Origin: an uncultured Prevotellaceae bacterium
Lineage (GTDB): Bacteria > Bacteroidota > Bacteroidia > Bacteroidales > Bacteroidaceae
Assembly: GCA_947167515.1 (NCBI GenBank)
Contig: CAMVIM010000035.1
Location: 1-36,202 of the forward strand
DNA: 36,202 nucleotides
Direction: 5' to 3'
Shown piece after piece: positions 3,706 through 25,724 of the stretch; position 1 is the first letter of the stretch, and the number at the start of each line of letters is the position of its first letter. A model generated the notes under the pieces. The model was not told the origin of the DNA and did no database searches. It saw only the letters and a list, made by a program, of their open reading frames with translations. A program made the translations under genes and the position numbers.

Positions 3706-4656
3706 ATGATGAGATATACAGAATTGGGCAAAACTGGAATGAAGGTGTCCCACTTGGCGTTCGGCGCATCGTCGCTGGGCAGCGTGTTTCACGAGACAAA
3801 AGAGGCTGAAAGCATAAAGGCGGTGGAGGCGGCCATCGAGGGCGGCATCAACCTGATTGACGTGAGTCCTTACTATGGTCACTACAAGGCAGAGACGGTG
3901 TTGGGCAAAGCGCTGAAAATCATCCCTCGCGACAAGTATTTTCTGAGTACGAAGGTGGGACGCTACGGTAAAGATGGCGTGAACACTTGGGACTATTCAG
4001 GCAAACGTGCCACGGAGAGTGTGTACGAGAGCATGGAACGACTGAACATCGACCATATCGACCTGATCAACGTGCATGACATCGAGTTTCAGGCTGCGAT
4101 GGAGGGGGGATTGCAGAAGGTGGTGGATGAGACGCTGCCTGCGCTGGTGGAACTGAAGAAGAAGGGTGTTGTGGGTCATGTGGGCATCACGGACTTACAG
4201 CTGGAGAACCTCAAATGGGTCATCGAGCACTCGGAGGAAGGCACCGTGGAGAGTGTGTTGAACTTCTGCCATTACTGTCTGAATGATGACAAGCTGGTCG
4301 ATTTCCTCGACTTCTTCGAGGCCAAGGGTGTGGGTGTCATCAGTGCATCACCCCTGAGCATGGGTCTGTTGTCACAACGTGGTGTGCCAGCATGGCATCC
4401 TGCTCCGAAGCCACTGGTGGCGGCTTGTGCCAAAGCTGCAGCATACTGCACAGAGAAAGGTTACCCGATTGAGAAGCTGGCCATACAGTACGCTGTCAGC
4501 AACGAGCGCATCGCTGGCACCCTGTTCTCATCGGCCAATCCCGAGAACGTGAAGCGTAACATCCAATGGGCCAACGAAGAACCCGACTGGCAACTGGTGA
4601 AGGAAGTGCAGGAAATCATTGGTGACCAAAAGCGCGTAAGCTGGGCGAATTCCTGA
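3706..4656 (+). CDS. Aldo/keto reductase, probable L-fucose (L-galactose-type) 1-dehydrogenase
   Basis: The protein is 316 aa, cytoplasmic, and the length of a normal aldo/keto reductase barrel. The tetrad is visible: D52 and Y57 in IDVSPYYG, K83 in STKVG and H124 in INVHDIE. The C-terminal phosphate-binding loop region has SSANPENVKRN. The sequence style is that of the plant L-galactose dehydrogenase / D-threo-aldose 1-dehydrogenase group, which oxidises the C1 hydroxyl of L-fucose or L-galactose to the lactone with NAD(P)+. First gene of the operon; the lactone would be the substrate of the lactonase encoded 12 bp downstream. ATG 3709 is an equally good start (loses one Met). The exact sugar is inferred from the FucP permease and fucosidase in the operon. 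Confidence 0.85.
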   Translation: MMRYTELGKTGMKVSHLAFGASSLGSVFHETKEAESIKAVEAAIEGGINLIDVSPYYGHYKAETVLGKALKIIPRDKYFLSTKVGRYGKDGVNTWDYSGKRATESVYESMERLNIDHIDLINVHDIEFQAAMEGGLQKVVDETLPALVELKKKGVVGHVGITDLQLENLKWVIEHSEEGTVESVLNFCHYCLNDDKLVDFLDFFEAKGVGVISASPLSMGLLSQRGVPAWHPAPKPLVAACAKAAAYCTEKGYPIEKLAIQYAVSNERIAGTLFSSANPENVKRNIQWANEEPDWQLVKEVQEIIGDQKRVSWANS

Positions 4657-4668
4657 AAACTAAAAACT

Positions 4669-5553
4669 ATGACTATTATAGACTCTCACACCCACCTGTG
4701 GAAGAAGCAAGACACATGGGTGGACGGAAAAAGGATTCTGTCGATGAAGAACGGCAGGAGCATCTTCATGGACGAAGAGGTGCAGATGATGCCTCCGTTC
4801 ATGACCAGTGAGCAGAACTCGGCTGAGGTGCTGTTGTCAAACATGAATTATGCACAGGTGGGTGCTGCCGTGGTGGTACAGGAAGTCATCGATGGCAACC
4901 AGAACGCCTACCTGACAGAGGTGCAACAGCAATACCCTGAGCGGTTCTTCTGCATGGGAATGGCTTGGAACCTGGACGAGGCGAAAGCGGTGCATGATGC
5001 AGGTCTGAAAGGCATCGCGTTCCCTGGGCATCGCATGAAGGAGTCGCTCCAGACGCTCATGCCTGTCTTCAAATACATGGAGGAACAGGGCATGGTGCTG
5101 TCCATGTGTCTGGGCGATGACGAACACCAGATTGGCGAGATGAAGGAGGTGATTGAGGAATGTCCTGCGCTGAAAGTGGCGATAGGTCATTTCGGCATGG
5201 TCACCACCCCATCGTTCAAGAGCCAGGTGCTGTTGGCAAGGGCTGGCAAGAACGTGATGGTGGAGTCAGGTGGCATCACTTGGCTGTACAACGCAGAGTT
5301 CTACCCCTACCCCTCTGCCATCCGAAGCATCAAGGAGGCTGCCGACTGGGTGGGCATGGACAAACTGATGTGGGGAAGCGACTATCCCCGCACCATCACT
5401 GCCATCACCTATAAGATGTCGTATGACTTCGTGTCGAAATCGAAGGAACTGACAGAAGACGAGAAGGCGCTGTTCCTCGGACAGAATGCCGAACACTTCT
5501 ACGGATTCAAAAACTTACCAGAACTACCATACATTAAAAATATGTCCGAGTAA
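4669..5553 (+). CDS. Amidohydrolase-2 family lactonase, probable L-fucono-lactone hydrolase
   Basis: The protein is 294 aa with no signal peptide. It is a metal-dependent TIM-barrel hydrolase of the amidohydrolase_2/COG3618 type: the metal-binding HxH is in DSHTHLW (H7, H9), a further ligand is H174 in IGHFG, and the catalytic Asp is D238 in WGSDYPR. Known members of this group hydrolyse sugar lactones such as L-fucono-1,5-lactone and L-rhamnono-lactone. Placed directly after the aldo/keto reductase and before the FucP permease, hydrolysis of L-fuconolactone to L-fuconate is the best reading. Gaps are 12 bp upstream and 25 bp downstream, consistent with one mRNA. Substrate is inferred from context, not from the sequence alone. 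Confidence 0.82.
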   Translation: MTIIDSHTHLWKKQDTWVDGKRILSMKNGRSIFMDEEVQMMPPFMTSEQNSAEVLLSNMNYAQVGAAVVVQEVIDGNQNAYLTEVQQQYPERFFCMGMAWNLDEAKAVHDAGLKGIAFPGHRMKESLQTLMPVFKYMEEQGMVLSMCLGDDEHQIGEMKEVIEECPALKVAIGHFGMVTTPSFKSQVLLARAGKNVMVESGGITWLYNAEFYPYPSAIRSIKEAADWVGMDKLMWGSDYPRTITAITYKMSYDFVSKSKELTEDEKALFLGQNAEHFYGFKNLPELPYIKNMSE

Positions 5554-5578
5554 AAAGGAATAAACAAATAACAATCAA

Positions 5579-6889
5579 ATGAAGAAACCTTTAGTATCGA
5601 AGAAATATCTCTTCACATTTATATTGATTACGTCGTTGTTTGCCTTGTGGGGCTTTGCCAACGACATCACCAACCCGATGGTGGCTGCATTCCAGACTGT
5701 GATGGAGTTGTCAGCAGCAAAAGCATCGCTGATTCAGTTTGCGTTCTATGGCGGTTATGCCACCATGGCGATTCCCGCAGCCTTGTTCATCCGCAAGTAT
5801 TCGTACAAGAGCGGCATCTTGTTGGGCTTGGCACTCTACGCCATTGGTGCATTCCTCTTCATCCCTGCGGCTGAGTGGCAGGAGTTCTCGTTCTTCTGTG
5901 TTTCGCTCTACATCCTCACCTTCGGTTTGGCGTTCTTGGAAACTACTGCCAACCCCTTCATCCTCTCGTTGGGTGACAAGGAGACTTCCACCCGTCGTCT
6001 GAACCTGGCACAGGCATTCAACCCTGTGGGTTCGTTGAGCGGTATGGCAGTCGCATCCTTCATCGTATTGCCTCACCTGCTGTCCGACAAGCGTGATGCA
6101 GCAGGACAAATCATCTTCCCTCTCTTGTCTGAAGCCGAGAAAGCGGACATCCGCCTGCACGACTTGGCTGTTATCCGCAACCCTTACGTAGCCATTGGCC
6201 TCGTGGTGGTGGCTGTGCTGGTGATTATCGCCATCACGAAGATGCCAAAGACGGAGAGTGAGGAACAGAAAGCGGCAGGTCAGACCCATACGCTCAGCGA
6301 GACGATGCACAATCTCTGGCACAACACCATCTATCGTGAGGGTGTGTTTGCACAGGTATGCTACGTGGCTGCGCAAATCATGGTGTGGACCTTCATCATC
6401 CAGTACGCCGACCACCTCGGCATCAACAAGGCAACGGCTCAGGTGTACAACATCGTGGCGATGTCGATGAACCTCTTGGGACGTTTCCTCGGTACGTACA
6501 TCATGCGTTTCGTGAACACACGCAAACTGTTGACCATTTTCGGTGTGGGTGCATCCATCTGCACGTTCGGTGCCATCTGCATCGAAGGCATGTGGGGACT
6601 CTATTCATTGGTGGCTATCAGCCTCTTTATGTCCATCATGTTCCCCAGCATCTACGGCATCGCTTTGGAGAATGTCGATACGAAGGACACCCATCTGGGT
6701 GCTGCTTTCCTCGTGATGGCAATTGTAGGTGGTGCGCTGATGCCCCCTCTTCAGGGTTTGATGATTGACCAAGAGGTCATCTGGGGTAGGCCAGCGGTGA
6801 ACATGTCGTTCATGCTCCCCTTGGCTTGCTTCCTGTTCATTATCGTGTACGGATATCGTTCTTATAAAAAAATGAAGATTGAAAATTGA
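5579..6889 (+). CDS. fucP: FucP-type sugar:H+ symporter (MFS, FHS family)
   Basis: The protein is 436 aa with 12 predicted membrane segments. Family hallmarks are QFAFYGGYATMAIPAALF, YSYKSGILLGL, the FLETTANPF segment and RRLNLAQAFNPVGS. It imports L-fucose, or possibly galactose or glucose, by proton symport across the inner membrane. From memory of the E. coli FucP alignment, E121 matches the essential Glu135, but the position of E. coli Asp46 is Asn32 here, with an Asp three residues earlier (D29 in FANDITN). Proton coupling may therefore be arranged differently, or the sugar range may differ. Third gene of the operon, between the lactonase and the zinc dehydrogenase. The fucose assignment rests mainly on context. 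Confidence 0.85.
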   Translation: MKKPLVSKKYLFTFILITSLFALWGFANDITNPMVAAFQTVMELSAAKASLIQFAFYGGYATMAIPAALFIRKYSYKSGILLGLALYAIGAFLFIPAAEWQEFSFFCVSLYILTFGLAFLETTANPFILSLGDKETSTRRLNLAQAFNPVGSLSGMAVASFIVLPHLLSDKRDAAGQIIFPLLSEAEKADIRLHDLAVIRNPYVAIGLVVVAVLVIIAITKMPKTESEEQKAAGQTHTLSETMHNLWHNTIYREGVFAQVCYVAAQIMVWTFIIQYADHLGINKATAQVYNIVAMSMNLLGRFLGTYIMRFVNTRKLLTIFGVGASICTFGAICIEGMWGLYSLVAISLFMSIMFPSIYGIALENVDTKDTHLGAAFLVMAIVGGALMPPLQGLMIDQEVIWGRPAVNMSFMLPLACFLFIIVYGYRSYKKMKIEN

Positions 6890-6902
6890 AAAATAGAAGA
6901 AA

Positions 6903-7922
6903 ATGAAAGCGATTCAAATCACTCACTCTCAGGAGTTGAACATCATTGAGATGGAGAAGCCTGCTGCACTGAAGGCAGGCGAAGTTCTGTTGAAATTGGA
7001 ATATGTCGGTTTTTGTGGTTCCGACCTGAACACGTTCTTGGGACGCAACACCATGGCGCTGAACCCTGTCATCCCAGGACACGAGATTGGTGCTGTCATC
7101 GAAGCAGTGGGCAGCGAGGTGCCTGAAAACCTGAAGGTGGGTATGGTGGTGACTTGCAACCCCTACACCAACTGCAACAAATGCGCATCGTGCCGTAATG
7201 GTCGTGTGAATGCTTGTCAGCACAATGAGACTTTGGGTGTACAGCGCAATGGTGCAATGAAGGAGTACATCGTGATGCCTTGGGAGAAAATCATCCCCGC
7301 AGGCACCCTCTCAGCCAAGACCAGCGCCTTGATTGAGCCGATGAGTGTGGGCTTCCATGCAGTCAGTCGTGCGCAGGTGACAGATGTAGATACCGTCATG
7401 GTGATTGGTTGCGGCATGGTGGGCATGGGCGCTATCGTGCGTGCTGTCACTCGTGGGGCAACTGTCATTGCTGCCGACCTGGACGATGAGAAGTTGGAAC
7501 TCGCCAAGCAGATGGGTGCCACTTATGCCATCAACACGAAGACAGAGGATGTGCATCAGCGTCTGGCTGACCTCACAAGCGGCTTTGGCCCCGATGTCAT
7601 CATCGAGGCAGTGGGTAACCCCTTCACCTATCAGATGGCTGTGAACGAAGTGGCCTTCACAGGACGTGTGGCTTGTATAGGTTATGCGAAGTCAGATGTG
7701 ACCTTCACGACGAAACTCTTCGTGCAAAAGGAGCTCGACATACGTGGTTCCCGCAATGCCACCCCAGAAGATTTCCGCGCTGTCATCCGCTACTTGGAGA
7801 GAGGCACCGCACCTGTGGACAAACTCATCACGAAGGTCATCCAGCCCGAGGAAGCATTGGAGACCATGCAATGGTGGAGCGAGAATCCAGGAAAGGTGTT
7901 CAGAATACTTACTAAGTTTTAA
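6903..7922 (+). CDS. Zinc-dependent medium-chain alcohol dehydrogenase, probable sugar-acid or polyol dehydrogenase
   Basis: The protein is 339 aa. Catalytic zinc ligands C38 (GFCGSD) and H60-E61 (PGHEIG) are present, and the structural zinc site has four Cys (C91, C94, C97, C105). The NAD-binding Rossmann turn is GCGMVGMG (about 169-176). It belongs to the threonine/sorbitol/L-galactonate dehydrogenase type, with a KELDIRGSRNA stretch comparable to that region in E. coli L-galactonate 5-dehydrogenase. In this operon it could oxidise L-fuconate at C5, or a later fucose intermediate; neither can be read from the sequence. It starts 13 bp after the permease gene. The short spacer between them has a TTGAAAATTGAAAAAT stretch, similar to repeats elsewhere in the window. 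Confidence 0.83.
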   Translation: MKAIQITHSQELNIIEMEKPAALKAGEVLLKLEYVGFCGSDLNTFLGRNTMALNPVIPGHEIGAVIEAVGSEVPENLKVGMVVTCNPYTNCNKCASCRNGRVNACQHNETLGVQRNGAMKEYIVMPWEKIIPAGTLSAKTSALIEPMSVGFHAVSRAQVTDVDTVMVIGCGMVGMGAIVRAVTRGATVIAADLDDEKLELAKQMGATYAINTKTEDVHQRLADLTSGFGPDVIIEAVGNPFTYQMAVNEVAFTGRVACIGYAKSDVTFTTKLFVQKELDIRGSRNATPEDFRAVIRYLERGTAPVDKLITKVIQPEEALETMQWWSENPGKVFRILTKF

Positions 7923-8023: not shown

Positions 8024-9223
8024 ATGAAGGTCTTTGTCAGTGGTTGTTACGACTTGCTCCACAGCGGTCATGTGGAGTTCTTCCGACAGGCGAGTCAGTA
8101 TGGTGACTTGTATGTGGGCATCGGGTCGGATGCAACCATTCTCCACTATAAGCACCACAAGACGCTGTACCCTGAGCAGGAACGTCTCTTCATGGTGAAG
8201 AGCATCCGCTACGTGAAGGATGCCTTCATCAATCAAGGCGATGGTGTGATGGACTTCATCCCGACGGTAGAAGCCCTGAAACCTGACCGCTTTGTGGTGA
8301 ATGCAGATGGTTCCAGCGAGGAGAAACGCCAATTCTGCCAAGAACGCGGTATCGAATACATCGTGCTTGACCGCACTCCTGCCGACGGGTTGGAAGCAAG
8401 AAGCAGTACCAGCATCAAAGCCACCTTGGGACAGGGAAAAGGTCAGATAGAAAAATCGCCCAGCGCAGGCATCCCCACCCGTCTCGATTTGGCTGGCACT
8501 TGGATTGACCAACCCTACGTAAGCACGTATGCACCAGGATGGGCTATCACCATTTCCTTGCAACCCACGTTCGAGATTCGTGAGCGTTGTGGACTCTCCA
8601 CTTCGACACGTAACCAAATCAAGCGCATCTGGCCTGTGCATCTGCCTGACATGGATCCTGAGATGTTGGCAAAACTGGTGTTCTGCTTCGAGAACGACCC
8701 TGAACGCACAGACGGCATCATCAGCGGTGCGCAGGATGCCATCGGCATCTGTATGCCAGGCCTTTGCCGCCACTACTACAATGCCCACTACTGGCCAGAG
8801 CGAATCGAGTCATGCACAGACGAGCACACCCTCAGTTGGCTGGAACGTCACCTCTGCATGATTCCCATGTTCCCACGTCGTCCAGGGTGCTCGGTCGTAG
8901 ATGGAAAAGATATCACCGAAGCCCACGTGAAGGCTTTGGCAGACGCTGCAGCAAAGTGTTGGGATGCCATCATGTGCACCGACCTCGAGGCCTTCGCTGC
9001 CACCTATCGGGCTTCGTTCGAGGCACAAATCACCCTCTTCCCTGCGATGATTCAGCCAGGAGTGCAGGACTACATCGACCAGTACGCATCCATGAAGGAG
9101 GTGCTCGCGTGGAAGATGCCCGGTGCTGGAGGAGGTGGGTACTTGGCGCTGGTGGTGAACGATGCCAGCACCTTCTGCCAAGCACACGAAGAAGCAATAC
9201 CATTGGTCATCAGACGACCCTAA
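8024..9223 (+). CDS. Cytidylyltransferase-like domain fused to a divergent GHMP-kinase-like domain
   Basis: The protein is 399 aa. Residues 1-135 are a nucleotidyltransferase of the TagD/RfaE type: HSGH at 13-16 in CYDLLHSGH and an end motif ARSSTSIK at 124-132. Residues about 145-399 resemble GHMP sugar kinases: IPTRLDLAGTWIDQP (150-164, compare RIDLAGGWTDTP of fucokinase/heptokinase types), SGAQDAIG (234-241) and the glycine-rich third motif PGAGGGGY (366-373). The usual second motif (PxGxGLGSSAA) is absent; the only similar stretch is CGLSTSTRNQ at 189-198, so ATP binding is doubtful or altered. The longest open frame starts at 7931, but its extra 31 residues come from the intergenic repeat, so ATG 8024 (MKVFVSG) is chosen. 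It sits between sugar dehydrogenase and fucosidase genes in the fucose operon. An activity on fucose or a fucose-derived acid is inference; the function is unknown. Confidence 0.8.
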   Translation: MKVFVSGCYDLLHSGHVEFFRQASQYGDLYVGIGSDATILHYKHHKTLYPEQERLFMVKSIRYVKDAFINQGDGVMDFIPTVEALKPDRFVVNADGSSEEKRQFCQERGIEYIVLDRTPADGLEARSSTSIKATLGQGKGQIEKSPSAGIPTRLDLAGTWIDQPYVSTYAPGWAITISLQPTFEIRERCGLSTSTRNQIKRIWPVHLPDMDPEMLAKLVFCFENDPERTDGIISGAQDAIGICMPGLCRHYYNAHYWPERIESCTDEHTLSWLERHLCMIPMFPRRPGCSVVDGKDITEAHVKALADAAAKCWDAIMCTDLEAFAATYRASFEAQITLFPAMIQPGVQDYIDQYASMKEVLAWKMPGAGGGGYLALVVNDASTFCQAHEEAIPLVIRRP

Positions 9224-9235
9224 ACGTTACACAAT

Positions 9236-10903
9236 ATGACAATCAGACAACTAACTTTTGCAACCTTGACGCTTGTCACAACAAGCATGTCTGCACAGCA
9301 GACCTACAAAATTCCTGTGCTGGAGAATGACGAACCGATGGCAACAGGACAGTTCACACCCGATTGGGAGTCACTCCGTACCTACGAGGTGCCTGAATGG
9401 TTCCGTGATGCCAAGTTCGGCATCTGGGCACACTGGGGGCCTCAGTGCGTAGAAGGTTCGGGTGACTGGATGGCTCGTGAACTCTACATCGAGGGAACCT
9501 ACAAGGCCAACTACCACCGTGAGCACTACGGACACCCATCTGAGGTGGGATTTAAGGACATTCTTCCCCTTTTCAAGGCTGAGAACTGGACTCCCGACGA
9601 GTTGGTGAAATTCTACAAGGAAGAGTGCGGTGCCCGCTACTTCTTCGCCCTTGGCAACCACCACGACAACTTCGACCTTTGGGATTCCAAGTATCAGGAG
9701 TGGAATTCTCAAAACATTGGCCCACACAAGGACATTCTGGCTGGATGGGCACAGGCTGCCAAGAAGGCTGGACTGCCCCTCGGCATATCCTTCCATGCCG
9801 ACCACGCATGGACATGGTACGAACCTTCACGCCGCTTTGACCTCAAAGGCGAGAAGCGCGGTGTGAAATATGATGGCTGGCTGACGAAAGAAGACGGCTA
9901 CAAGCCCAATCCCGACGGTACCGAGAAATGGTGGAAAGGTCTTGACCCTCAGAAGCTCTATGCCCAGAATCATGACTTCAGCGACAACACATGGGACAAC
10001 GGTGCCATTCATCGCCAATGGGGATGGGAAAACGGTGCTTGTCTGCCCACGCAGGAGTTCGTGACCAACTTCTACAACCGCACCCTCGATGCCATCAACC
10101 GCTACAATCCCGACCTCATTTATTTCGATGTGACCGTGCTGCCCTTCTACCCCGTCAGCGATGCAGGCATGAAGATTGCAGCCCACATGTACAACCACAG
10201 CGCCGCCACCCACAAGGGCAAGAACCAAGCTGTCGTCTTCGGCAAAATTCTGGAAGAAGACATGAAGGACGCCCTCGTATGGGATGTGGAGCGCGGTGCG
10301 CCTAACAAAATCATGGAACGTCCTTGGCAATGCTGCAACTGCATCGGTGACTGGCACTACAACACCGGCACCTACGAGCGCAATCACTACAAGAATGCCC
10401 ACACCATTGCCAAGCTGCTGGTAGACATCGTATCCAAGAACGGCAACATGCTCCTGTCTGTTCCTCTCCGTGCCGACGGCACACCCGACGAGAAGGAACT
10501 CGCCATCATGAAAGAGTTTGGCGCATGGATGAAGGTGAACAGCGAAGCCATCTACAAGACTCGTCCTTGGAAAATTTTCGGTGAAGGTCCCATCGCTAAT
10601 GCCGACATCAAGATTAACGACCAAGGTTTCAACGATGGACAGTACATCAAGGCTGGCAGTGAGGAAATCCGTTTCACACAGACTGAAAAGAATCTCTATC
10701 TGGCAGCTTTGGGATGGCCTTCCGACCGCACCCTCCGCGTGAAATCCTTGGCTGAAGGCTCCACCCTCTTCCCAGCCCACATCAAGCAAGTAGAACTGCT
10801 CGGCTACGGCAAAGTGCAGTTTGAGCGCACCAAAGAAGCCCTCATCGTCCATTTGCCAGAACCCACCAACAAGATTATGCCGGTGTTACGCATCAAGAAA
10901 TGA
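9236..10903 (+). CDS. Secreted GH29 alpha-L-fucosidase
   Basis: The protein is 555 aa, with a short signal peptide (about 1-20, ending SMSAQ). The family start PEWFRDAKFGIWAHWGPQ (53-70) is clear, followed by GNHHDNFDLWDS (140-151) and NPDLIYFDVT, where D298 is the probable nucleophile. The catalytic (alpha/beta)8 barrel ends near 440 and a beta-sandwich follows to the end. It releases terminal L-fucose from oligosaccharides or glycoproteins in the periplasm or at the surface. Last gene of the operon, 12 bp after the fusion protein. No lipobox Cys is seen, so periplasmic rather than lipoprotein. The general acid/base cannot be assigned by eye. Confidence 0.92.
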   Translation: MTIRQLTFATLTLVTTSMSAQQTYKIPVLENDEPMATGQFTPDWESLRTYEVPEWFRDAKFGIWAHWGPQCVEGSGDWMARELYIEGTYKANYHREHYGHPSEVGFKDILPLFKAENWTPDELVKFYKEECGARYFFALGNHHDNFDLWDSKYQEWNSQNIGPHKDILAGWAQAAKKAGLPLGISFHADHAWTWYEPSRRFDLKGEKRGVKYDGWLTKEDGYKPNPDGTEKWWKGLDPQKLYAQNHDFSDNTWDNGAIHRQWGWENGACLPTQEFVTNFYNRTLDAINRYNPDLIYFDVTVLPFYPVSDAGMKIAAHMYNHSAATHKGKNQAVVFGKILEEDMKDALVWDVERGAPNKIMERPWQCCNCIGDWHYNTGTYERNHYKNAHTIAKLLVDIVSKNGNMLLSVPLRADGTPDEKELAIMKEFGAWMKVNSEAIYKTRPWKIFGEGPIANADIKINDQGFNDGQYIKAGSEEIRFTQTEKNLYLAALGWPSDRTLRVKSLAEGSTLFPAHIKQVELLGYGKVQFERTKEALIVHLPEPTNKIMPVLRIKK

Positions 10904-14328: not shown

Positions 14329-17300
14329 TTACTTCACGACCACTTTGCGACCCTTGCGGAGGTAGATGCCGCGAAGCGTAGGCTTGCTGTCCAGACGAAC
14401 ACCCTGCAGGGTATACCAGCTCTCGTCCGCTGCCAGACTCCTGTCCTCCACAGAAGAGATGCCCGTCACCAACCCATCGCCAAAGTTCAGGACGATGTCA
14501 CGCATCTGGGCAAGGCCGATGCCAGCGTCAAGATGGAAGTAGGCACGGAAGGCATTGATGGTTAGGTTATCTGCTGCAGGATAATAGAGCTTGTTGTCTG
14601 AGCCCAAGTAGAGTCGGGACTGGTCATCTTTCGTTAATGTTTCAGGAGCATAGACACCGTGGAAGGTGAGCAGCCCATCCTTGCTTGTCACATCAACAGG
14701 ATCCTTTGCATCTATCGTGACACCCCTAAAGACTGGATTGCTGATGTCCTCACCGCTTTCCCACTTCACGAGGTAAGGCTTACCAGCCTCAATGCTGGCA
14801 GCATCCTTGAAAAAGAGGTAGAGGATGCCATTTTCCGCATCGAAGCCCGTCCGCTTGCCTGTATAAATGCCATCGATGTCGAGTTCCTTCAGTGCTGAAG
14901 GCGCCAACTGAGCAGCCACCTGATCCACGGTCATACTGAAGGGCAGACATAGTGTATTCCACGAATTGTCTTTCTCAAGGATACGATTCTGTAAAGTGAC
15001 CACACCACGAATGTCATTGTATGTGTTAAGCGTTGCAGTGTTGTCGCTACCGTCGGCAAGACTGATATTGGTGGCCAAGTAGGTCAGCGTAACATCATCA
15101 GCAACAATCTGAGCAGGAGTATTGCCCGTGCCCTGCTTCTGGAAACCAATGATAACGTCAAAAGGCGTAGGCTCGCTAACGGTGAAGTCGTAGGTCAAAG
15201 TCCCAGCCGTAGCCTTGCCTATGGGGGTGCTGACATCACCTAACTTGTAGCAGGAGAGGTTCTTCATGTTATTCAGATTGCTGTCCCAAGAAAGTGACAA
15301 ACGATACTTGCCTATGGGCAGCATCTTCTCCTTAGTGACTGTGAGCGTGGTGGCTGCACTACCCCAGTTCTTACGAATATAGAGCTTATCCATATTATCA
15401 GACTGCTTGGTCTGCAACACTGCCCAAGTGTCAGCATCAGCATAGTCCACCTCCCAACCTGTTACTTCATGAATATCATTACTATTGTCGGTATTCATGG
15501 CGTCACCTCCTGCTGCACTGAAGTCAAGGTTCTCGCCAAGGAAAGCAGAAACAGAGAAGTTTTTCGTCTGTGCAGTGGCGTAATCGTCAAAGGCTGTGTT
15601 AAGGGCAACAATGGCAGTCTGTTCAGTAACATCTGTGTCCATGTTGCTGTCTGCGTCATAACCGCCCACGATGTTGAGTGCCGTCGTTCCTGCCACCATC
15701 GCCTTATAGCTCTTGAAGAGGCGCAGTGAGGCATCGGTGGCATCCATCTGTGCGATGAGTTCGTCCTTCTTGGTGCCGTAGCTGGATGCCTGTGATACAT
15801 CGTCGAGGGCTGTGGACACAGCGTTCACCTTGGTCAGCAGCGTTGCCCATGCATCGGCACTCATCGTCATGCGGCGGTAGTCGGTGCCATCAGCAAGATT
15901 GTAGTCGTTCTCGAAGCGTTCGAGAGCGGCAATCATCTGCACACGATTGTCCTTAACGGTCTGAATCTGCTGCTGCGCTGTTTGGATGGCATTGGGCAGA
16001 GTGGTCTTCGTCACCTCCATCAAGGCATCGAATGTGTTGGCGGCCTCGGCAGTGCTGATGGCTGTGGAGAGGGCGTTCTGCTGCGCTGTAGTGAGCATAC
16101 CTGCGTCTTCGCTGGCCAACACGCCGTTAGCCTCAGCAACGAGGGCATCACGGTCGGCCTTCAGTACCGTCAGGTCAGGGTCTTTGCTGTAGGTGATGGT
16201 GTAGATTTGTGCCACATGCCAGTTGGAGCCAGCTTGTTCTTTCATTATGCCGTATGTCAGTGTGCCCGCACTTGTCAGTTGAACGCTGACATTCACAGGT
16301 GTCGGGGCATCAATCTCAGAGGCATGGAAAATAGGAAGGCCAACCTTCTGATTATTAGCGAAACCGAAGGTACGGTTGTTGTCACCGACATTGCCCACCT
16401 CGGTCATGCCACGGCCAGGGGTGAAGCAGGCTGCACCGTAAAGGGCTACGGTATAATAGCCTGACGGCATGCCGCTGAGCGTCTGAGTGAGGATGTTGCC
16501 TGTGCGCCCTACGGCTTGGTCGTTCTGCTCGTAGGCTTCAACAAATTTATAGGGGGTGGGGTTGCTCTTCAATGCCCAACCTACGTATCCTGCCACATGG
16601 TCGCCATCCACTGCAGTCCAGTCGGATGCATCGCGTGAGGCTAAGAATGTCAGGTCGAACGGATGGCCGTCCTCTGCCGTGACGCTGCTCACAAAGCTAA
16701 GGGCGGCAGCACGGAGGTTAGCCGTCTGCGTTTTGATGGTAGCGGCATCGGTGGTAGCCTCAACTACACTATTTGCCGTGTTAATAGCGTTTTCAAATGT
16801 TGTCTTTGCCCCACTGTTGTCTATATATTGATATGTGTTGTTGTCTTTCAACTGCTCCACATTTCCCAACAGTTCATTATATTCATCGTATGCAGTCCGA
16901 AAGGCACTCTTTCCCTTGTAAGTGAGTTTGAATGTGTCGAAAATCATCCAGTTGCCATCCTGTCCTTGGTCTATGCCCATCTCCAACGTGCCGTCGGTCA
17001 CTTCTATGTCGAGCGAGACCCGTGCGTATGTGCCACCTTCAAGAGCTGTTTTCATATTGGCGTATGTGCTTTCACCATCGTCTGTGACACGAATGGTTGC
17101 AGGGGCGGTGATAGTCTCTGTAGCGTTCTTGGCATACAGGAAGGCTTTGGAAACTTCGTCTGTAAGTTGCACGGACAGGGTGTAGCTGCCGTTGGGCAAG
17201 CCGTTGATGGTCTGGCTGAACTTAAATCCAGTCTGGTGCCAACTCTCCACAATGCCATTGGAACATTGGAAGTTGCCGCCAGTGCCAGTTTTTGTCCATC

Positions 17301-18027
17301 CTCCATAATAGTTGTCAGTGCCCCAGTTGCTCCCGTTGCCGTCATCGAATGTCGGGTTGATGATGGCTATCGTGGCATCCTCGGGTGACGCACTGGTTGC
17401 GCCTGCAAGTTTGTTGGCAAAGACTAACGAGCGGGGGATGGAATAGATATAGAACTCACCTTTGTTGGCATCCGTCTTGTTGCCTGCACACTCGGCTCCA
17501 TTGGTAAAATTGTTTGTATCCCATGGGCCGATGTATTTCTCCGAACTTTCCGCGGCACGGCTATTCTCAAGCGTGAATTTTCCATCATTTAAGTGGAAGT
17601 TCAGTTTGGAATAGGAGTTTTCCCCACCTTTCGTATCAGCAATATCTGTGGGTCGATAAATCCAATGTGCGTTGTAGTCTGTATTGAACTGAACGGGCGC
17701 ATAACTTACATTGCGGAGTGCGTAGCCCGAACCATTGGCTTCTATATACCACAGTTTACCCAAGTCCGTCGTAGGGTCAGCACACGTCTGATAATAGACG
17801 CCCTTGCGGTCGCTTCCTTGGTGATTGCCTGTGGCAATGCCTAACATGAGGTCGCGGTTGACATCCACAAAAACATAGCAGTTGGCCTCCATTTCTGAGG
17901 CTGTCGGCATGGTTGTCACTTTCGTCCATCCCTCAGAGAGGGCAAAAATAGAGGTGTTATCTGCCCATGCATTACTACCCAGACAGGTCAGCGCGAGGGC
18001 TGCGAGAAGAAATCTTGTTGTTTTCAT
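14329..18027 (-). CDS. Large modular secreted protein with repeated sugar-binding-like and helical modules
   Basis: The protein is 1232 aa with a signal peptide ending NAWA (about 1-22). A beta-rich N-terminal domain (to about 195) is followed by three jelly-roll modules of galactose-binding style (about 215-375, 455-625, 800-990), recognised by repeated L(P/S)xGxYxLxxx lines such as INGLPNGSYTLSV and LSGMPSGYYTVALYG. They alternate with helical FIVAR-like stretches (about 380-445 and 630-790). A further beta domain runs to about 1190. The tail SWYTLQGVR ... RGIYLRKGRKVVVK resembles a C-terminal sorting signal. No catalytic domain is seen; surface adhesion or glycan binding is inference. It follows the phosphoesterase gene by 34 bp, so both probably share an mRNA. 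It is of the same build as the 28869-31685 protein. Confidence 0.78.
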   Translation of the reverse strand: MKTTRFLLAALALTCLGSNAWADNTSIFALSEGWTKVTTMPTASEMEANCYVFVDVNRDLMLGIATGNHQGSDRKGVYYQTCADPTTDLGKLWYIEANGSGYALRNVSYAPVQFNTDYNAHWIYRPTDIADTKGGENSYSKLNFHLNDGKFTLENSRAAESSEKYIGPWDTNNFTNGAECAGNKTDANKGEFYIYSIPRSLVFANKLAGATSASPEDATIAIINPTFDDGNGSNWGTDNYYGGWTKTGTGGNFQCSNGIVESWHQTGFKFSQTINGLPNGSYTLSVQLTDEVSKAFLYAKNATETITAPATIRVTDDGESTYANMKTALEGGTYARVSLDIEVTDGTLEMGIDQGQDGNWMIFDTFKLTYKGKSAFRTAYDEYNELLGNVEQLKDNNTYQYIDNSGAKTTFENAINTANSVVEATTDAATIKTQTANLRAAALSFVSSVTAEDGHPFDLTFLASRDASDWTAVDGDHVAGYVGWALKSNPTPYKFVEAYEQNDQAVGRTGNILTQTLSGMPSGYYTVALYGAACFTPGRGMTEVGNVGDNNRTFGFANNQKVGLPIFHASEIDAPTPVNVSVQLTSAGTLTYGIMKEQAGSNWHVAQIYTITYSKDPDLTVLKADRDALVAEANGVLASEDAGMLTTAQQNALSTAISTAEAANTFDALMEVTKTTLPNAIQTAQQQIQTVKDNRVQMIAALERFENDYNLADGTDYRRMTMSADAWATLLTKVNAVSTALDDVSQASSYGTKKDELIAQMDATDASLRLFKSYKAMVAGTTALNIVGGYDADSNMDTDVTEQTAIVALNTAFDDYATAQTKNFSVSAFLGENLDFSAAGGDAMNTDNSNDIHEVTGWEVDYADADTWAVLQTKQSDNMDKLYIRKNWGSAATTLTVTKEKMLPIGKYRLSLSWDSNLNNMKNLSCYKLGDVSTPIGKATAGTLTYDFTVSEPTPFDVIIGFQKQGTGNTPAQIVADDVTLTYLATNISLADGSDNTATLNTYNDIRGVVTLQNRILEKDNSWNTLCLPFSMTVDQVAAQLAPSALKELDIDGIYTGKRTGFDAENGILYLFFKDAASIEAGKPYLVKWESGEDISNPVFRGVTIDAKDPVDVTSKDGLLTFHGVYAPETLTKDDQSRLYLGSDNKLYYPAADNLTINAFRAYFHLDAGIGLAQMRDIVLNFGDGLVTGISSVEDRSLAADESWYTLQGVRLDSKPTLRGIYLRKGRKVVVK

Positions 18028-23405: not shown

Positions 23406-25724
23406 TCATCTTCCCGAATAGCTGGTGGCAGCCTTGCACGTGGTTGACGTGGAACCGATGGTCACGGTGTAACTGCTGCCAGACGTGAGGCCTGGGCAAC
23501 TGAGCAGATAGCTAAAGCCTGAGCTGGAGTTGCCACCGCCACCGGGGCCTCCTCCACCACCAGGACCAAAGCCCCCGCCACCACCAGGACCAAAGCCACC
23601 GCCACCACCAGGGCCACCCCCTCCGCCATTTGTCGGCGAGTAACCTGTTGGCACAGTGAACGAAGCCAATGTGGTCGAACCATTCTTCACGCTGACCGCT
23701 GTGCCTGCTGTGGCACTGCCCGAAGTGCTGAGCACGCACTGCGCCCCTGTAGTCGAGGTGACGGTGTTGTTGCCGCCGCCTATGCCGAGCACGGTGCCGC
23801 CCGTGATGTAGAGGCTATAACGCTCGGCTGCATCGAGGCCACACTCAGGAGTGCCGGCGCCACAAGCGATGATGGTGCCGCCTGAGATGGTCATGTTGCC
23901 ATTGCTGTCGATGCCGTCGTTGCCATTGCTCACGCCCGTCACAGTGCCACCTTCCAGAAACATGTGACTGGCCGAATTGATGGCATCGTCCGACGAACTG
24001 AAAGCATATACAGTACCACCGCTGATAGTCATTTCGCCCTTGGTCTCAATGGCCTCGTGACCACTCGATGTGGCACTGACGGAGCCACCCGTCACGGTCA
24101 ATTTGCCGTTGCTCTTGATGGCCTTGGGCTGTGCCTTGCTGTTGTTGTAGGAGTAGGTGGAACCTGTCGTGGTGGCCGTGATGTTGGCATTGTCGCTGAT
24201 GGTCAGCGTGCCGTCGGCCTTGATGCACTTGCCACCCGTACCAGTGCTCTTCAGGGTGAAGGTGCCTCCACTGATGGCCATATTGCCATCGGCATTCAGA
24301 CAGCTGGCACCCTTAGAGTCCTTTTCAATACCATCGTATGCGCCTGCACCGCTGGTTGTGATGTTGATGGTGCCACCCGTGATGGTCATGTTGCCATCGT
24401 CAGCCTTGATGCCCTTGCTGGCCGCACCACTGGAAGTGACGGTGATGGTGCCGCCATTGATGAAGACATGAGCGGCCTTCAGTCCCTTGGCGGTACAGAA
24501 ATAAGCGGCGGTGCTGGCTGCACTCGATGCACTGGCCTTGGTGGCGGCGGTGCTGGTCACCTTGACGGTGCTGCCGTCGTTGATGGTCAATGTGTTTTCA
24601 GCCGCAATGCCACGTCCAGCCGCTCCCTTCACGTTGGCCGTGATGTCGCCGCCATTCTGCACGAAGTCTTCCGCCTTGATTCCTGCCGTGTAAGACGGGT
24701 CAATGTAGCCATTGGAGTCAGTTCCGCTCAAGTCCACATCACCGTTGGCATTAAGCGTGAATGTCCCACCGCTGACCGTCACCGTGCCGTCAGCCTTGAT
24801 GCACTTGGCAGCGGCTGCAGTAGCGGTGATGTTGAGCGTTCCGCCCTCAATGTACATATTACCGCCATCCTCGTCTTCGTGGGCATCCACCTCGTCTGTC
24901 TTGACGATTTCGCCCGTCTGCTCCTCATCAATGTCACACTGTATGCCATCGTCACCCGCACCGCTGATGGTCACCGTACCGCTCTTCATCAGGAAGTATT
25001 CCTCGCAGTTAATGCCATCACTAATCGTTGAGGTGAGGTTGAGGGTGAGGTTCTTCACCGAAATGTAAGATGCGCTCTTGATGCCGTGCTTGGTGTTGCC
25101 CACCACATTGAGTGTGCCATTGCCTTGCAACTGAAGTTGTCCCTTGCTGTAGATGCAGGCTTTCTGTTCGCCATTGGCGCAGTCGGTGAGCGTGTTCTCC
25201 GTGCCTTTCTTGGCACTGAGCTGAATGCGCTTCTTATTGCTGATGTTGATGGCAGAGCCACTGGGATTGGTCAGCGTCACACCAGCCAGCGAGACGGTAC
25301 ACTTATACGAGCCTGAAAGGTCGAGCGCACCATCGGTGGAGGTGCCGGTCAACACGTAGGTGATCTCGTCATCATCCACCGCATCGGTGTTACTTTGAGC
25401 GATGCAGACATGAGCACCGCTGAGCGTCGGTGTGACATACTGTGCCACATTGCCGGCCACCGTCACTTGAGCTCTTGTGCCACTATAGGCCACGGCCACC
25501 TCGTTGTTGGTCACCTCGGTCTCGTCCACATAGATTCGGGTGATGTCGCTGATAGTGAATGTCTTGCCACAGATGGTGAGTGTGGTGCCATCGGCATAGG
25601 TCATGTCGCCAGCCTGGGCAGCAGGAAACTGCCATGTCACATCGCCAGTCACGACATTGAGCGTCTGAGCCTGTGCTGCTATCGTCAGAACCAAGGCTGC
25701 TAAAAGGGCATCTATCTTTTTCAT
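23406..25724 (-). CDS. Secreted beta-helix protein (DUF4353-like, carbohydrate-binding annotation) with Gly-rich tail
   Basis: The protein is 772 aa with a signal peptide ending AAQAQ (about 1-20). A short domain (20-95) contains FTISDITRIYVDETE, similar to the partner protein encoded upstream (FTLSNLSKMYFTETD). From about 110 to 680 there are many coils of a parallel beta-helix, with lines such as NGNMTISGGTI, ADGTVTVSGGTF and SAKGIK/DGIxSNG, as in DUF4353 proteins often labelled carbohydrate-binding. At about 699-731 lies a low-complexity (GGGGxGPGGGG) stretch, then a short C-terminal domain with two Cys. Its ATG overlaps the stop of the upstream gene (ATGA). It lacks the sorting tail of its partner. 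A surface or matrix role is inferred. Confidence 0.8.
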   Translation of the reverse strand: MKKIDALLAALVLTIAAQAQTLNVVTGDVTWQFPAAQAGDMTYADGTTLTICGKTFTISDITRIYVDETEVTNNEVAVAYSGTRAQVTVAGNVAQYVTPTLSGAHVCIAQSNTDAVDDDEITYVLTGTSTDGALDLSGSYKCTVSLAGVTLTNPSGSAINISNKKRIQLSAKKGTENTLTDCANGEQKACIYSKGQLQLQGNGTLNVVGNTKHGIKSASYISVKNLTLNLTSTISDGINCEEYFLMKSGTVTISGAGDDGIQCDIDEEQTGEIVKTDEVDAHEDEDGGNMYIEGGTLNITATAAAAKCIKADGTVTVSGGTFTLNANGDVDLSGTDSNGYIDPSYTAGIKAEDFVQNGGDITANVKGAAGRGIAAENTLTINDGSTVKVTSTAATKASASSAASTAAYFCTAKGLKAAHVFINGGTITVTSSGAASKGIKADDGNMTITGGTINITTSGAGAYDGIEKDSKGASCLNADGNMAISGGTFTLKSTGTGGKCIKADGTLTISDNANITATTTGSTYSYNNSKAQPKAIKSNGKLTVTGGSVSATSSGHEAIETKGEMTISGGTVYAFSSSDDAINSASHMFLEGGTVTGVSNGNDGIDSNGNMTISGGTIIACGAGTPECGLDAAERYSLYITGGTVLGIGGGNNTVTSTTGAQCVLSTSGSATAGTAVSVKNGSTTLASFTVPTGYSPTNGGGGGPGGGGGFGPGGGGGFGPGGGGGPGGGGNSSSGFSYLLSCPGLTSGSSYTVTIGSTSTTCKAATSYSGR
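23532..23628. repeat. Tandem 27-bp coding repeat (Gly-rich segment)
   Basis: The unit includes CCACCACCAGGACCAAAGCC and encodes GGGGGFGPG on the minus strand, with two close copies and flanking partial ones. Repeat number may vary between strains. Confidence 0.65.

Follow-up and report, generated by a model that had tools for sequence, protein, structure and literature searches.

What does a protein that joins a nucleotidyltransferase to a GHMP sugar kinase-like domain do among fucose genes? The question is raised by an open reading frame on the plus strand, at positions 8024-9223 of contig CAMVIM010000035.1 from an uncultured Prevotellaceae bacterium (assembly GCA_947167515.1). The whole analysed stretch of 36,202 nucleotides is referred to here as the window, and the 399-amino-acid product of the frame as NT-GHMP. 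Sequence comparisons led us to put the probability at roughly two in three that NT-GHMP, a compact protein of separate assembly, stands in for the Bacteroides L-fucokinase/GDP-fucose pyrophosphorylase Fkp and makes nucleotide-fucose from L-fucose. Two observations carry this assignment: NT-GHMP did not co-occur with Fkp in any of 201 genomes of one family, and it frequently has fucose genes as neighbours, so that NT-GHMP probably does the job of Fkp. The separate kind of sugar activation proposed by a first-pass annotation of this DNA, made from the sequence alone, is supported as the likely role.

Domains and conserved residues of NT-GHMP

The reading frame is far above chance: its product matched the Pfam family CTP_transf_like with an E value of 3.6e-13, and long relatives were found in other genomes down to 40% identity. 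Its features are listed below; counts out of 86 refer to an alignment of the window protein with 85 further loci.

8024..9223, +, NT-GHMP protein, 399 amino acids; relatives align from the same ATG
8024..8419, +, nucleotidyltransferase domain, residues 1-132
8060..8071, +, HSGH motif, residues 13-16; H13, G15 and H16 in 86/86
8399..8413, +, RSSTS motif, residues 126-130; R126 in 83/86, S127 in 85/86, S128 in 84/86
8420..8464, +, linker, residues 133-147; low confidence in the predicted model
8465..9220, +, shortened GHMP kinase-like domain, residues 148-399
8480..8515, +, motif 1, residues 153-164; R153, W160 and D162 correspond to Fkp R592, W599 and D601; 86/86
8591..8611, +, altered motif 2, GLSTSTR, residues 190-196; at the start of model helix 193-202
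8723..8737, +, SGAQD, residues 234-238; Q237 and D238 correspond to Fkp Q761 and the proposed general base D762
9119..9142, +, motif 3, PGAGGGGY, residues 366-373; G367, G371, G372 and Y373 in 86/86

The N-terminal domain belongs to the cytidylyltransferase-like superfamily: the match to PF01467 (CTP_transf_like, residues 5-102) lies over the curated cut-off, the HxGH motif is present, and in NCBIfam the generic domain TIGR00125 is over its cut-off. The HSGH and RSSTS motifs are both intact (RSSTSI spans residues 126-131). The domain is closest to the CTP:glycerol-3-phosphate cytidylyltransferase fold, HldC matching too, and the fucose pyrophosphorylase domain PF07959 found no match in NT-GHMP or in genome G000. 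The analogy with Fkp drawn in the first-pass annotation, which included a different transferase fold, was borne out: both proteins have an N-terminal transferase and a C-terminal GHMP sugar kinase domain, but the transferase has the PF07959 fold in Fkp and the HxGH fold in NT-GHMP, and Fkp comprises about 950 amino acids. Nucleotidyltransferases of the TagD/GCT and HldC type share the fold and the HxGH motif of NT-GHMP but carry no fused sugar-binding domain and act on other substrates. In the heptose kinase/adenylyltransferase HldE, a sugar kinase and an HxGH transferase are also joined, but the transferase is C-terminal; the HldE kinase is of the ribokinase type, and the HldE profile matched the transferase part of NT-GHMP weakly (28.5 bits, cut-off 521). 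Between the two domains, the predicted local distance difference test score fell below 50 at residues 129-147, and residues 143-147 are gapped in 76-78 of the 86 sequences; with a predicted template modelling score of 0.65 and this low-confidence linker, the relative orientation of the domains in the model was left unused. Alignments starting at residues 43-46 were set aside.

Residues 150-399 are, according to the predicted model, a truncated GHMP sugar kinase fold of the Fkp/HddA group. The GHMP N-terminal profile PF00288 had no match in the protein or at the locus in the search of G000, and the C-terminal profile PF08544 reached 13.1 bits in the window protein and 20.4 bits in the relative L027 (cut-off 21). 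The Fkp equivalog NF009948 matched the C terminus weakly (E value of 5.4e-7; 27.7 bits, below the cut-off of 721), and a sequence search of the PDB aligned this part with Fkp (best chain 9iip, E value of 1.4e-5). A profile built from five sequences retrieved Fkp at 37 bits and then HddA at 32 bits. In hhalign, the GHMP part matched Fkp with a probability of 97.3 (E value of 2.1e-11), and control proteins that we take, from their motifs, to be galactokinase-like, homoserine-kinase-like and IspE-like stayed below 2. Fkp as the clear nearest relative was nevertheless dropped, because a fair control with HddA-like kinases and kinases carrying GGWTD in motif 1 scored similarly: a profile of five such proteins reached 98.2 and one of five Fkp sequences 97.1, and when the query was made more diverse the two values were 98.8 and 98.1. 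When this control was split, the local score of the two GGWTD kinases was 96.1 and their global scores were 97.3-97.8; for the three HddA-like kinases, the local scores were 72.5 and 93.6 and the global scores 85.0-97.5. By these comparisons the domain is placed in the Fkp/HddA group, and no single nearest member is assigned. The fucose-stacking Trp is common to NT-GHMP, Fkp and the GGWTD kinases but is not found in the three HddA-like proteins, which have GGGTD at this place; the HddA/WcbL heptose kinases further differ in having a complete motif 2 and no fused transferase. When 335 genomes of the phylum were searched with the short GHMP domain, the six strong matches, found in five genomes, all lay in transferase-bearing proteins; the remaining 19 matches (E values of 2e-9 to 1e-5) lay in open frames of 254-364 amino acids, and the five frames inspected were single-domain kinases. 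Loci L211 and L214 encode stand-alone GHMP kinases of about 350 amino acids whose motif 1 contains GGWTD, like that of fucokinases.

A study of Fkp (PMC11982464) describes Arg592, Trp599, Asp601, Thr602, Gln761 and Asp762 as surrounding fucose, with Asp762 as the general base, the phosphates held by loop 712-720, and a modelled adenine flanked by Asp644, Met645, Pro666, Ile669 and Leu722. This numbering fitted the three Fkp sequences on which it was checked, except for a Leu at 645. Five of the fucose contacts are matched in NT-GHMP by R153, W160, D162, Q237 and D238, each present in 86/86 sequences, as is G235. Q163 takes the place of Thr602, and E223 (Fkp E751) is found in 85/86. All motifs named by the first-pass annotation are present in the translation (HSGH, RSSTSI, RLDLAGTWIDQP at residues 153-164, GLSTSTRNQ at residues 190-198, and PGAGGGGY), and PxGxGLGSSAA is not. 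The unusual placement of GLSTSTRNQ was also correct, but the claim that motif 2 is lacking did not hold. Fkp GLGTSS aligns with GLSTST (residues 190-195), and the distance from this motif through the catalytic Asp is 49 residues in NT-GHMP against 48 in Fkp; from the motif 1 Arg to the motif 2 loop it is 37 residues against 123. In this alignment, motif 2 is changed rather than absent, with the preceding PxGx lost in a deletion ahead of it. The deletion removes about 86 residues, including Fkp 644-669 and thus D644, M645, P666 and I669 of the adenine site, and the suspected partial loss of the ATP site was hence upheld. Residues 150-238 were compared with eight loci. They gave nonsynonymous divergences (dN) of 0.017-0.048 and synonymous divergences (dS) of 1.0-1.4 for the six nearest, a dN of 0.104 and a dS of 1.75 against L067, and a saturated dS against L071; by these ratios, the region is under strong purifying selection.

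Absence of co-occurrence with Fkp and linkage to fucose genes

Among the 201 genomes, NT-GHMP was found in 55 (E values up to 1e-20, some matches, such as those in G476, G538, G552 and G580, being partial) and Fkp, recognised by PF07959, in 81, of which 80 were over the cut-off. No genome contained both (p of 6e-16). The genera g1, g3, g176, g179 and g181 contain NT-GHMP and Fkp in separate genomes, and the zero overlap inside these five mixed genera had a p value of 4.7e-6, or 1.5e-4 if two extra empty genomes per genus were assumed (genus totals were taken from 185 of the 201 genomes as listed plus two further Fkp genomes). Gmd, used as a control, was present in 44/55 NT-GHMP genomes, 72/81 Fkp genomes and 49/65 others. 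GT10 or GT11 occurred in 7 of the 11 NT-GHMP genomes that have no Gmd, among them G411 and G440, which are nearly complete, and in 2 of 4 tested Fkp genomes and 3 of 8 tested genomes with neither; this difference, for which 11/11, 4/9 and 8/16 of the respective Gmd-less genomes were covered, was not significant (p of 0.37). G000 carries a single GT11 and a single Gmd. In G520, NT-GHMP and a GT11 gene are on the same strand, separated by about 10 kb, and the GT11 gene is part of an apparent polysaccharide cluster.

Of 395 genomes sampled evenly across the phylum, 23 matched, but only five of them beyond the transferase domain (G000, G035, G078, G176 and G135), and no Fkp over the cut-off was found in the four distant genomes G035, G078, G176 and G135. 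The class to which G035 belongs had NT-GHMP matches in 18 of 294 genomes and PF07959 matches (E value of 0.001) in 86, several also with NT-GHMP; 85 of these 86 were below the cut-off, G014 alone being over it, too few for an exclusion test.

At least 530 relatives, which may include transferase-only proteins, were confirmed in named genomes, and gene neighbourhoods were surveyed for the 80 best of them. By their titles, the 80 come from Bacteroidales, Prevotellaceae, Bacteroidaceae and other Bacteroidota, many from the rumen or other gut sites. Within about 10 kb of NT-GHMP, we found the L-fucose symporter FucP in 40/80 loci, a rhaM-family mutarotase in 39/80, Gmd and GMER in 27/80 each, and a GH29 fucosidase in 6/80. 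At least one of FucP, mutarotase, Gmd and GMER was present in 63/80 loci (37/46 among those of more than 19 kb). FucP or mutarotase was present in 51/80, and Gmd or GMER in 28/80. One representative of each neighbour family was checked; fucP, gmd and rhaM were over the cut-off, and GMER reached 481.9 bits with the GDP-fucose synthase profile (cut-off 500). The linkage to fucose genes raised by the first-pass annotation held widely for uptake, the mutarotase and GDP-fucose synthesis, but for the catabolic genes it was confined to the closest relatives (aldo-keto reductase 4/80, lactonase 4/80, zinc-dependent alcohol dehydrogenase 6/80). Measured against the refuting condition named in that annotation, homologues mostly away from fucose genes, most homologues lie away from degradative genes but not from fucose genes. 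Among 20 Fkp loci inspected from the 81 Fkp genomes, 19 of them being all those of the five mixed genera, FucP was found in 3, Gmd and GMER in 4 each, and the mutarotase in none. Collectively, the gene context points to fucose activation.

Five loci of distant genomes had the following neighbours: Gmd, GMER and mutarotase at L027, FucP and mutarotase at L028, Gmd and GMER at L029, mutarotase and GH95 at L030, and at L031 none of the four genes, with GH95 directly after NT-GHMP. A short-chain dehydrogenase/reductase is encoded directly upstream at L029 (8285-9247) and L030 (8332-9330); judged by its motif, this protein is presumably similar to the GDP-mannose 3,5-epimerase of plants, a hint that L-galactose may be an additional substrate. 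Linkage to LicD, a CDP-choline type transferase, was raised by L182 and dropped, as LicD was found in 1/80 loci and 1/12 further loci. No full-length relative was found in the plasmid collection, whose two matching records covered at most 34% of the query.

Proposed function and competing explanations

In the mechanism that we favour, fucosidases would free L-fucose, FucP would import it, and the rhaM-family mutarotase would interchange its anomers. The GHMP-derived domain would hold L-fucose, and D238 would activate the anomeric hydroxyl to give fucose-1-phosphate, which the N-terminal HxGH domain would then couple to a nucleotide. The product would most likely enter the same GDP-fucose pool as that of Gmd/GMER. 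Two points of this proposal are less secure. Phosphorylation is the weak step, since the lost segment holds most of the Fkp-type adenine site; nucleotide binding may differ from that in Fkp, or phosphorylation may be assisted by the transferase domain. The other point is the nucleotide: the transferase domain is most like CTP enzymes, and its relatives argue for CTP or ATP, whereas the gene context argues for GTP.

The choice of nucleotide leads to the possibility, which we hold to be unlikely although worth serious attention, that NT-GHMP makes CDP-fucose, ADP-fucose or a nucleotide-L-galactose for a pathway of its own; this shares everything but the product with the scheme above. The cytidylyltransferase-like fold with its match to HldC, the presumed epimerase-like gene upstream at L029 and L030, and the window aldo-keto reductase of the L-galactose dehydrogenase group are in its favour, but the lack of overlap with Fkp and the linkage to Gmd/GMER are expected of an enzyme that shares the product of Fkp. 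The loss of most of the adenine site, in turn, would fit a GHMP part that no longer phosphorylates and only presents L-fucose or fucose-1-phosphate to the transferase domain, the rest being supplied by a separate kinase or by direct attack of the anomeric hydroxyl on a nucleoside triphosphate. The retention of the sugar site and general base and the confinement of all six strong short-domain matches to transferase-bearing proteins agree with this idea. We consider it rather improbable: G190, S194 and R196 are kept in 85/86 sequences (L031 is gapped there), the spacing from motif 2 to D238 is almost unchanged and motif 2 lies at a helix start, as if it still held phosphate, and we know of no HxGH enzyme that acts on a sugar hydroxyl. 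Equally doubtful is a one-piece enzyme without a kinase nucleotide site, in which GHMP-held fucose would be activated by the HxGH-bound nucleotide at a shared or handed-over site, a chemistry that, to our knowledge, has no precedent in either superfamily. Finally, the first-pass annotation had considered a sugar sensor, and partial loss of the ATP site might suit a noncatalytic sensor or regulator of fucose genes. This role is very improbable because the HxGH histidines and the catalytic Asp of the kinase are invariant in 86/86 sequences; the protein also has no Pfam DNA-binding domain, although no search was made for adjoining regulators.

If NT-GHMP indeed replaces Fkp, many Bacteroidales (the 55 of 201 genomes of one family) would salvage fucose through it, as would some bacteria from a further class of the phylum. 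The protein would also show to what extent the nucleotide-binding lobe of GHMP kinases is dispensable, and offer a short enzyme for nucleotide-fucose production. The lack of overlap with Fkp makes this function directly testable. The searched family libraries label NT-GHMP just as a generic nucleotidyltransferase, and our literature search, which left subscription papers mostly outside and so does not establish absence from print, found no paper on a protein of this kind.

Gene order in the window

NT-GHMP is flanked by genes for a zinc-dependent dehydrogenase and a GH29 fucosidase, with three further genes upstream:

3706..4656, +, aldo-keto reductase of the L-galactose dehydrogenase group (PDB 7lh6, E value of 3.7e-155)
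4669..5553, +, amidohydrolase, perhaps a sugar lactonase (PF04909, E value of 1.5e-40)
5579..6889, +, FucP, L-fucose:H+ symporter (TIGR00885, 539 bits, cut-off 280.4)
6903..7922, +, zinc-dependent dehydrogenase (PF00107 and PF08240 over cut-off)
9236..10903, +, GH29 alpha-L-fucosidase (PF01120, E value of 6.8e-81); starts 12 bases past NT-GHMP

The amidohydrolase matched FuconLaconase weakly (25.4 bits, cut-off 400) and had no PDB match at an E value of 1e-5; the best NCBIfam match of the dehydrogenase was PRK10083, at 194.6 bits below the cut-off of 376. Judged from these assignments, the operon-like run at 3706-7922 possibly encodes an oxidative route for L-fucose or L-galactose; a catabolic run of this type recurs in just 4-6 of the 80 related loci. 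Elsewhere in the window, the minus strand encodes a secreted-looking protein of 1232 amino acids (14329-18027) with no Pfam match at an E value of 0.001, and a carbohydrate-binding protein of the Cthe_2159 type (23406-25724) with a Gly/Pro-rich stretch near its end.
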